Part shown: piece after piece, positions 7,103-8,638 of the stretch
How positions within the stretch are numbered: the first letter of the stretch is position 1
Layout of the letters: every line of letters starts with the position of its first letter
IMG/VR virus record: IMGVR_UViG_3300040801_001081
Coordinates: 1 to 38,660 of that record
Reading direction: 5' to 3' (one strand)
Length of the DNA stretch: 38,660 nt
DNA from: a virus
The notes under the pieces: model-generated
The model's database searches: none
What the model was told of the DNA's origin: nothing
What the model saw: only the letters and a program-made list of their open reading frames with translations
Translations under genes and position numbers: made by a program

Positions 7103-7443
7103 AAGAGATCGACCCCGATGAAGTATTCCACCGCATCAACAATGCAGGGCAAGCTTGGGTTGAGGCTAACGCCAAAGCTCGACTGTACGAAGACACCGAG
7201 AAGTCAGAACTCAGCCAGATAACAATGGACAAGATCGCTGCCGGGGCGAGCAGCATGGCTCAGGCTGATGCGATGGCTCGGTCTGATAGTAAATATCGCG
7301 ACTTTGTGAAGGAAAAAGTCAGACTCAAACAAGAGGCTGACGAGGCGCGGGTCACCTACGATGCCGCAAAAATCTGGTGGGAAGCCCAGCGCACTGTTGC
7401 CGCTACCCTTCGCCAGGAAGGTAACATGATCAATGGGAGATAA
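7099..7443 (+). CDS. Hypothetical helical protein (114 aa)
   Basis: I choose the ATG at 7099-7101, which overlaps the stop of the previous gene as ATGA; the frame extends three codons upstream. The product (MKEIDPDEVFHRINNAG...) is rich in Ala, Lys and Glu and predicted helical throughout, with a charged KEKVRLKQEADEARVTYDAAK stretch, possibly a coiled coil. No family recognised. Its TAA (7441-7443) overlaps the first ATG of the WPTP-repeat frame. Confidence 0.65.
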   Translation: MKEIDPDEVFHRINNAGQAWVEANAKARLYEDTEKSELSQITMDKIAAGASSMAQADAMARSDSKYRDFVKEKVRLKQEADEARVTYDAAKIWWEAQRTVAATLRQEGNMINGR

Positions 7444-8638
7444 TGATGGCTTGGCTTTACATTCCATTGAGTTGTGCGCCGGCACAGGAATGCTCGGAGA
7501 AGGCGTCAGGGCTGCATTCGAATTTCTTGGATGGCAGCACCGAACTGTCTGTTACATCGAAAGGGAAGCTTTTGCCGCAGCGCAGCTTGTTGCGCTCATG
7601 GAAGCGCAATGCCTGGATGCAGCGCCTATCTGGTCTGACCTTACTACCTTCGACGGCGAAGCATGGCGGGGAAAAGTGGATTGCGTCATTGCTGGATTCC
7701 CCTGTCAGGATTTGTCAGTTGCTGGGCGGCGATCAGGGCTTGACGGAAAGCGGTCCGGGCTTTTCTTCAACGTCTGCCAGATCGCAGATGATTGCGGAGC
7801 GCGATTCCTCATTTTGGAGAACGTCCGTGGCATCACTTCTGCCACCGCCTCCGTTGTTTGCGAAGCCGAAGAATGGGAAGAACGGGCAGTTTCCAGAGTC
7901 GTGGGAGAACTGGCCGACCGCGGGTGGAATGCGGAATGGATGCATGTATCAGCGTCAGACGTGGGCGCAAGTCATGGCCGGGAGAGGTGGTTCTGTTTTG
8001 CGTGGAGAGAATTGGCAGACGCCGGGAGCAGACAGTTTCCGCAGCAGGGGCGGCGAGAGAAAGTCGGAAATGGGCCTAGACCAGCAAGTAAGGGCGCACT
8101 GGCCCACACCGAAAACCCTGACAGGCGGGGCGAACAGCAAGCGGAGTCAGAGGAATGCCGGGGGAGCGGATTTGCAAGAGAGCGTGGAGCAATGGCCAAC
8201 GCCAACGGGTCAGGACAACAATCAGGTGAAGGGGCAAGCAGCCGCAGCGGACAACCCACAGCGCGGGACAACGCTGGGCGGGGCGATCAGGCATTGGCCC
8301 ACACCGGCAGCGCACGAAGAACGTCTAGGATTTCAGGACCGATCAAGGGGAAAGAAAGGCTCACAGGAATCACTGACAACCGTTGTGATGCTGGCCGATC
8401 AAGACCCCTCTTCGCCCCTGGGCCAGCAGACGAGCGATGGCCCGAATCATCAAGCGATGTCCCTACCTCGCCCCGGCGATTGAATCCGGCGTTTGCGGGA
8501 TGGTTGATGGGCTGGCCCTGGTGGTGGACGAATCCAAAGGTGACCAACTCCGTTGCATCGGAAATGGAGTTGTTCCGCTCTCTGCTGGCGCAGCACTTGT
8601 CGAGCTTATTCGAAGAGCAAGAAAACAGGAGTAAATAG
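7433..8638 (+). CDS. C5-cytosine DNA methyltransferase, frameshifted near its C-terminus
   Basis: N-terminal catalytic motifs of C5 methyltransferases are clear: SAM site SIELCAGTGMLGEG (11-24), catalytic GFPCQDLS (Cys 91), ENVRG (129-133), GRERWF (182-187). Residues about 195-310 are the variable target-recognition region with repeated LAHTEN, MANAN, LAHTGS units. The last conserved motif (CIGNGVVPLSAGAAL) is not in this frame but in the next, at 8437-8634. Inserting one base at about 8441-8444 joins them into a 400-aa enzyme (7433-8634). As written, the frame ends at 8638 with a foreign C-terminus (NPAFAGWLMGWPWWW) belonging to the overlapping WPTP protein. Such enzymes protect phage DNA from host restriction. 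Start ATG 7433; its ribosome site (AGGAAGG) is 11 bases away. Confidence 0.85.
   Translation: MGDNDGLALHSIELCAGTGMLGEGVRAAFEFLGWQHRTVCYIEREAFAAAQLVALMEAQCLDAAPIWSDLTTFDGEAWRGKVDCVIAGFPCQDLSVAGRRSGLDGKRSGLFFNVCQIADDCGARFLILENVRGITSATASVVCEAEEWEERAVSRVVGELADRGWNAEWMHVSASDVGASHGRERWFCFAWRELADAGSRQFPQQGRREKVGNGPRPASKGALAHTENPDRRGEQQAESEECRGSGFARERGAMANANGSGQQSGEGASSRSGQPTARDNAGRGDQALAHTGSARRTSRISGPIKGKERLTGITDNRCDAGRSRPLFAPGPADERWPESSSDVPTSPRRLNPAFAGWLMGWPWWWTNPKVTNSVASEMELFRSLLAQHLSSLFEEQENRSK
7446..8483 (+). CDS. WPTP-repeat phage protein, overlapping the methyltransferase in the +1 frame
   Basis: This second frame lies wholly within the methyltransferase gene and carries a recognisable family pattern: start MAWLYIPLSCAP, then SWKRNAWMQRLSG, SWENWPTAGGMRNG, and repeated WPTP units (HWPTPKTL, QWPTPTGQD, HWPTPAAHEE). 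I recall such proteins annotated as separate hypothetical genes in other phages. GGGAG at 7435-7439 is six bases from the ATG at 7446, a better ribosome site than that of the methyltransferase. The expected C-terminus (LNPAFAGWLMGWP) lies in the neighbouring frame to 8638; restoring one base at 8441-8444 gives 397 aa. Function unknown. Whether the protein is made, or the pattern echoes the methyltransferase code, cannot be told from sequence alone. Confidence 0.6.
   Translation: MAWLYIPLSCAPAQECSEKASGLHSNFLDGSTELSVTSKGKLLPQRSLLRSWKRNAWMQRLSGLTLLPSTAKHGGEKWIASLLDSPVRICQLLGGDQGLTESGPGFSSTSARSQMIAERDSSFWRTSVASLLPPPPLFAKPKNGKNGQFPESWENWPTAGGMRNGCMYQRQTWAQVMAGRGGSVLRGENWQTPGADSFRSRGGERKSEMGLDQQVRAHWPTPKTLTGGANSKRSQRNAGGADLQESVEQWPTPTGQDNNQVKGQAAAADNPQRGTTLGGAIRHWPTPAAHEERLGFQDRSRGKKGSQESLTTVVMLADQDPSSPLGQQTSDGPNHQAMSLPRPGD

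Follow-up and report, generated by a model that had tools for sequence, protein, structure and literature searches.

The window analysed was the complete IMG/VR virus record IMGVR_UViG_3300040801_001081 (38,660 nt), and two long open reading frames (ORFs) were found on the plus strand over almost the same DNA, offset by +1. The frame 0 ORF (7433-8638, +, 401 aa) was predicted to encode the catalytic chain of a C5 methyltransferase, with profile matches to PF00145 (E 1.3e-26) and phrog_29583 (E 5.8e-102). The frame +1 ORF (7446-8483, +, 345 aa, or 346 aa from the alternative ATG at 7443) was predicted to encode a second protein, here named the WPTP protein, which was identified from its relatives and from selection tests and had phrog_1008 (E 7.8e-10) as its sole match. 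Both families are named DNA methyltransferase and are annotated separately; phrog_29583 covers the frame 0 protein and phrog_1008 covers the WPTP modules, motif IX and motif X, and their annotation does not name them as two frames of one gene. Predicted ribosome-binding sites, read from the sequence, were AGGAAGG at 7415-7421 for the ATG at 7433 and GGGAG at 7435-7439 for the ATG at 7446, six bases before that start. The first-pass annotation of this DNA had described both frames, the second ribosome site and the motifs FPCQ, ENV and RER, all of which were recovered, and the separate searches that it had proposed for the two translations gave the different family matches listed above.

Catalytic motifs I, IV (PCQ), VI (ENV) and VIII were present at 7433-8040, with FPCQ at about 7697, ENV at about 7817 and RER at about 7979, all in frame 0. 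The order in the frame 0 ORF was motifs I-VIII, a low-complexity LAHT/MANA filler, an FAPGP mark (8411) and a tail, LNPAFAGWLMGWP, from 8480, which in relatives is part of the WPTP protein. The core of the +1 protein (7899-7965, +), SWENWPTAGGMRNG, overlapped the methyltransferase segment ELADRGWNAEW before motif VIII and was conserved across families at z 24.6 against a methyltransferase-synonymous null. Four modules followed in the +1 frame on the plus strand. Module 1 (8013-8099; WQTPGADSFRSRGG...MGLDQQV) opened with WQTP at 8013 and resembled a module in locus L005. Modules 2 (8100-8192; WPTPKTLTGGANSKR...) and 4 (8295-8400, end approximate; WPTPAAHEERLG...) opened with WPTP at 8100 and 8295 and were delimited from sequence and clade comparison, and module 3 (8193-8294; WPTPTGQDNNQVKGQAAAADNPQRGTTLGGA), with WPTP at 8193, was of a type common to Escherichia phage ev129 (L002) and Klebsiella phage PIN1 (L003). 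The MAWLYIP start, SWENWPTAGG and the three WPTP units noted earlier were all found in the +1 frame, together with a fourth unit, the WQTP at 8013, and the LAHT, MANA and LAHT repeats of frame 0 were indeed the same bases as the WPTP units.

The 3' end of this copy differed from that of its clade relatives. The distance from FAPGP to LNP was 69 bases in this virus and 70 in most clade relatives showing both marks, where LNP lies +1 to FAPGP, so the ends of both frames were displaced together by a one-base length change in the interval 8426-8480 (+). Motif IX (8480-8536, +; LNPAFAGWLMGWPWWWTNP), placed by analogy with locus L132, was in frame 0 here and is in +1 in most clade relatives. Motif X (RCIGNGVVPLSAGAALVELI, 8551-8610, with RCIGNGVVP at 8551) was in a third-frame ORF (8437-8634, +) that matched phrog_29583 positions 402-462 (E 2.6e-17). 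Motifs IX and X were accordingly not together in one chain with motifs I-VIII, either in relatives (IX in +1, X in frame 0) or in this virus (IX in frame 0, X in the third frame). The one-base difference may be a real frame displacement or an assembly error, and since it displaces the last 150 bases, this copy may be inactive or misassembled. Both ORFs exist as first described, but their tails are displaced in this copy. About 10 of the 52 clade loci likewise had a frame displacement before motif X. These displacements, affecting about one fifth of the clade loci (L004, L019, L021, L035, L036, L040, L045, L063, L071 and others), lay between the modules and motif X, with motif IX always one frame on from FAPGP.

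Relatives and selection on the two frames

The 119 related loci came from WPTP searches and from querying viral contigs with the methyltransferase frame, a query that applied no selection for the WPTP frame. In most of these loci, an open +1 frame of about 250-560 codons ran over the methyltransferase, while the +2 frame was rarely open for more than 170. Among clade loci the +1 frame was open over the methyltransferase in nearly all, and routine interruption of the WPTP frame by stops in homologous methyltransferases was not the pattern found. Acidovorax phage Alfacinha3 had both frames open at full length, and the overlapping pair was also present in Escherichia phage ev129 and Klebsiella phage PIN1 and on plasmids of Acinetobacter baumannii, Leptospira interrogans and Bacteroides fragilis (L163, L164 and L165). 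Spread beyond Pseudomonadota and Actinomycetota rests on few plasmid and phage records, and E. coli population data gave two partial matches only.

Annotation of these records was uneven. In the records of Alfacinha3 (L001, 1204-2370) and Alfacinha1 (L166, 1204-2337), the WPTP frame bears the label 'cytosine-specific methyltransferase' and the true methyltransferase frame has no annotation, and on the three plasmids the methyltransferase frame alone is annotated. The first-pass view that WPTP proteins occur as stand-alone genes in other phages was not upheld, as those examined among public phage records share their DNA with a methyltransferase frame and are simply annotated alone. In L046 (3014-5233), the WPTP ORF continues into a downstream ParB-type-like ORF, giving a 740-residue frame.

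Stop codons were counted against shuffles of synonymous methyltransferase codons, which preserve composition and codon use. Over 92 methyltransferase loci, the +1 frame contained 150 stops against 485 expected, part of the 150 coming from stretches past frame displacements, as in this virus. The +2 frame of the same loci contained 1131 against 1209 expected. Nine ordinary C5 methyltransferases from genomes of the host families showed no depletion (120 stops in +1 against 124.5 expected), and the depletion in the overlapping loci held at GC 0.43-0.50. Near motifs VI and VIII, conservation of the +1 frame across families stood above the methyltransferase-synonymous null by z 12 and z 25, respectively; the corresponding +2 values in this test were 5.5 and 9.4, which is a measure of shared descent and coupling.

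Over motifs I-VIII, 14 independent pairs showed 0.60 changes per site at sites silent in both frames (a small class of 43 sites) and 0.27 at sites silent in the methyltransferase only (Fisher P 6e-6), while a control frame gave 0.34 against 0.27 (P 0.15). Suppressed synonymous variation in the overlap, a check set beforehand, was thereby observed. In the module region, dN/dS was 0.23 for the WPTP frame and 1.56 for the methyltransferase frame, with modules grouped by WPTP-frame similarity, a grouping that favours the WPTP frame. When modules were paired by DNA alone, amino acid identity was 0.80 in the WPTP frame and 0.61 in the methyltransferase frame, and with this DNA-only grouping divergence at WPTP codon positions 1, 2 and 3 was 0.11, 0.14 and 0.33. 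The reverse test over the modules, with WPTP-synonymous shuffles in 44 loci chosen with frame 0 open, showed no frame 0 stop against 123 expected; the third frame contained 238 stops against 236 expected. Of the clade loci, 42 had FAPGP in frame 0, and none of them had a frame 0 stop from motif IV to that mark. Neighbouring ORFs were also considered as controls and were contaminated by spurious ORFs in high-GC DNA; they were dropped, together with N-terminal codon-position divergence, for the shuffle, overlap dN/dS and ordinary-methyltransferase tests.

Both frames are under selection, because +1 stops are depleted, the WPTP frame has a dN/dS of 0.23 and frame 0 has no stop where 123 were expected. 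At the level of sequence, constraint falls on both proteins over motifs I-VIII and, in the module region, on the WPTP protein, while frame 0 there just stays open. The suggestion that one long gene codes in two frames, for a methyltransferase and an overprinted partner, was thus supported by stop depletion and selection tests, and both frames are probably translated. The further claim of two conserved proteins stood over motifs I-VIII and did not extend to the repeat region, in which the WPTP frame was conserved and the methyltransferase frame was open filler.

Candidate recognition modules and comparison with known enzymes

In 47 of 48 loci, the WPTP start lay at most 13 bases from a methyltransferase-frame start codon, and 14 loci had an overlapping NTGA-RTG start pair. 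The order of the WPTP protein was a start, a core over motifs VI-VIII (FWRTS, TWPRxGxMRNG), one to six modules and LNPxFxxWLMGxPxxW. The modules were about 30 residues long (range about 25-40) and opened W/L-P-T-P. All 207 modules extracted in the clade were in the +1 frame and none in frame 0, and at least 22 module types were each present in at least three loci. The WPTP proteins of Alfacinha1 and Alfacinha3 (L166 and L001) were nearly identical save for one whole module that was swapped.

In the mycobacteriophage protein Deb65 gp64, a single frame carried motifs I-VIII followed by four LPTP modules and then motif IX (EWMMGWPAGW) and motif X, and 17 mycobacteriophage-type loci had later modules in frame 0. 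Within L128-L156, which are of mycobacteriophage type, most had the first one or two modules in +1 and later ones in frame 0, and in L141, L147 and L148 all later parts were in +1. In other actinophages the enzyme was split between a pair of overlapping genes, each annotated as DNA methylase, and the modules, motif IX and motif X were in the +1 gene (L106, L096, L118, DrYang gp77/78 and Phanphagia gp65/66).

C5 methyltransferases read DNA via a variable region between motifs VIII and IX (PMC3404938). In the loci studied here several candidate recognition units (one to six) lay between these two motifs, the arrangement that characterises multispecific methyltransferases. The WPTP units form a repertoire of modules exchanged as cassettes and lie, with motif IX after them, exactly at the place of the target-recognition region.

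Structure prediction for the WPTP protein with AlphaFold gave a mean pLDDT of 50, higher only around motif IX, and was too uncertain for a fold search. The modules were unstructured in the model of the single-chain L132 protein too (pLDDT about 25-35). The L132 model aligned end to end with M.HhaI (Z 23, 232 residues), and this supports the assignment of motifs IX and X. Searches of the WPTP protein against PDB sequences gave chance matches only, and no family was found for it in Pfam and NCBIfam.

In M.EcoHK31I, too, the small chain is read from an alternative frame lying within the gene for the large chain. This enzyme is naturally split into two polypeptides, the larger with motifs I-VIII and X and the smaller with motif IX (Lee, Kam and Shaw 1995, cited in PMC3404938). 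The division of motifs matches that of intact clade relatives such as L001 and L010, but not that of this virus with its displaced ends. The predicted target-recognition domain of M.EcoHK31I is in the larger chain (PMC3404938), whereas the candidate recognition modules described here are in the +1 chain; a multi-module array exchanged between phages, a near full-length overlap and an occurrence in at least four phyla also set the present loci apart. In the split enzyme M.AquI, motifs I-VIII are in one chain and the distal variable region, IX and X in the other (PMC3404938), a division like that of the actinophage loci L106, L096, L118, L123 and L124. Those loci differ from M.AquI in their long +1 overlap and module array, and the clade of this virus differs in keeping motif X in frame 0.

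In Bacillus phages, multispecific C5 methyltransferases have several target-recognition domains arrayed along a single polypeptide (PMC12707154, citing Trautner et al. 1996). They resemble the present loci by arrangement, in that known or candidate recognition units follow one another from motif VIII to motif IX of a temperate-phage methyltransferase, but they are single chains in one frame, whereas the array here is in a second frame. As in known overprinted phage and viral genes, same-strand overlapping frames are under dual constraint. No description of an overprinted C5 methyltransferase was found in the open-access literature.

Interpretation of the overlapping frames

We consider it probable that the locus encodes a two-chain C5 methyltransferase, its catalytic chain read in frame 0 and its specificity chain in frame +1. 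Frame 0 would yield the catalytic chain with motifs I-VIII, plus motif X in intact relatives, and frame +1, starting a few bases from the other start, would yield the WPTP chain with exchangeable target-recognition modules followed by motif IX. The two chains would associate, and the WPTP chain would supply the small DNA-reading domain that the catalytic chain is without. Each module, judging from its position, may read one DNA sequence, and phage DNA methylated at the sequences set by the modules would be protected from host restriction.

An alternative that we regard as unlikely is that both frames are translated and the WPTP protein is an independent overprinted phage protein, for example a restriction inhibitor or a methyltransferase regulator. 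All the dual-coding evidence fits this, and the WPTP protein is without an assigned fold or a Pfam or NCBIfam family. The modules, however, lie exactly between motifs VIII and IX, bring motif IX along and are in frame within mycobacteriophage methyltransferases, and the catalytic frame has filler alone where its recognition region should be.

It is less likely still that a fused enzyme is made by programmed ribosomal frameshifting, with a start in frame 0 and a +1 shift after motif VIII into the modules and motif IX. Such a product would suit the actinophage loci in which motifs I-VIII occupy one ORF and everything from the modules to motif X an overlapping one in +1. In the clade of this virus, the +1 frame has its own start codon and stays open and conserved from the beginning of the methyltransferase, features that a shift after motif VIII does not need. 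Reading motif X in frame 0 would moreover take a second shift.

The WPTP frame could also be an unexpressed echo or reservoir, whose out-of-frame modules are kept since indels occasionally bring them into frame 0; mycobacteriophage modules are partly +1 and partly frame 0, and frame displacements are common. This appears very improbable given that 207 of 207 clade modules are in +1 with a dN/dS of 0.23, that the +1 protein is constrained over the module-free motifs I-VIII as well, and that the overlap is present in lower-GC plasmids of Acinetobacter, Leptospira and Bacteroides. A chance artefact of codon bias in high-GC DNA, where stops are rarer in every frame, is refuted by the synonymous shuffles, by a third frame and ordinary methyltransferases that behave as expected and by the persistence of the pattern at GC 0.43-0.50, and can practically be dismissed.

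For the two-chain enzyme, a suggested evolutionary path begins with a single chain that a change of frame after motif VIII divided in two; the +1 ORF would then have grown backwards across motifs I-VIII until it had a start of its own. With somewhat less assurance than for the enzyme itself, we favour on balance the view that such C5 methyltransferases form a large class occurring widely in phages and plasmids, among Pseudomonadota, Actinomycetota, Spirochaetota and Bacteroidota, in which catalytic and specificity chains would occupy two frames and targets would be changed by swapping short cassettes that have to remain open in both frames.

To our knowledge, long same-strand dual-coding genes have rarely been established in double-stranded DNA phages and bacteria. 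The overlap described here covers several hundred codons in at least four phyla and is statistically testable from public genomes, where records are at present mis-annotated, with one frame or the other named methyltransferase and its partner omitted. If the WPTP chain sets the target, its modules would form a natural modular code for methylation specificity, readable by comparing module content with methylomes, and would explain how phages could gather protection against several restriction enzymes.
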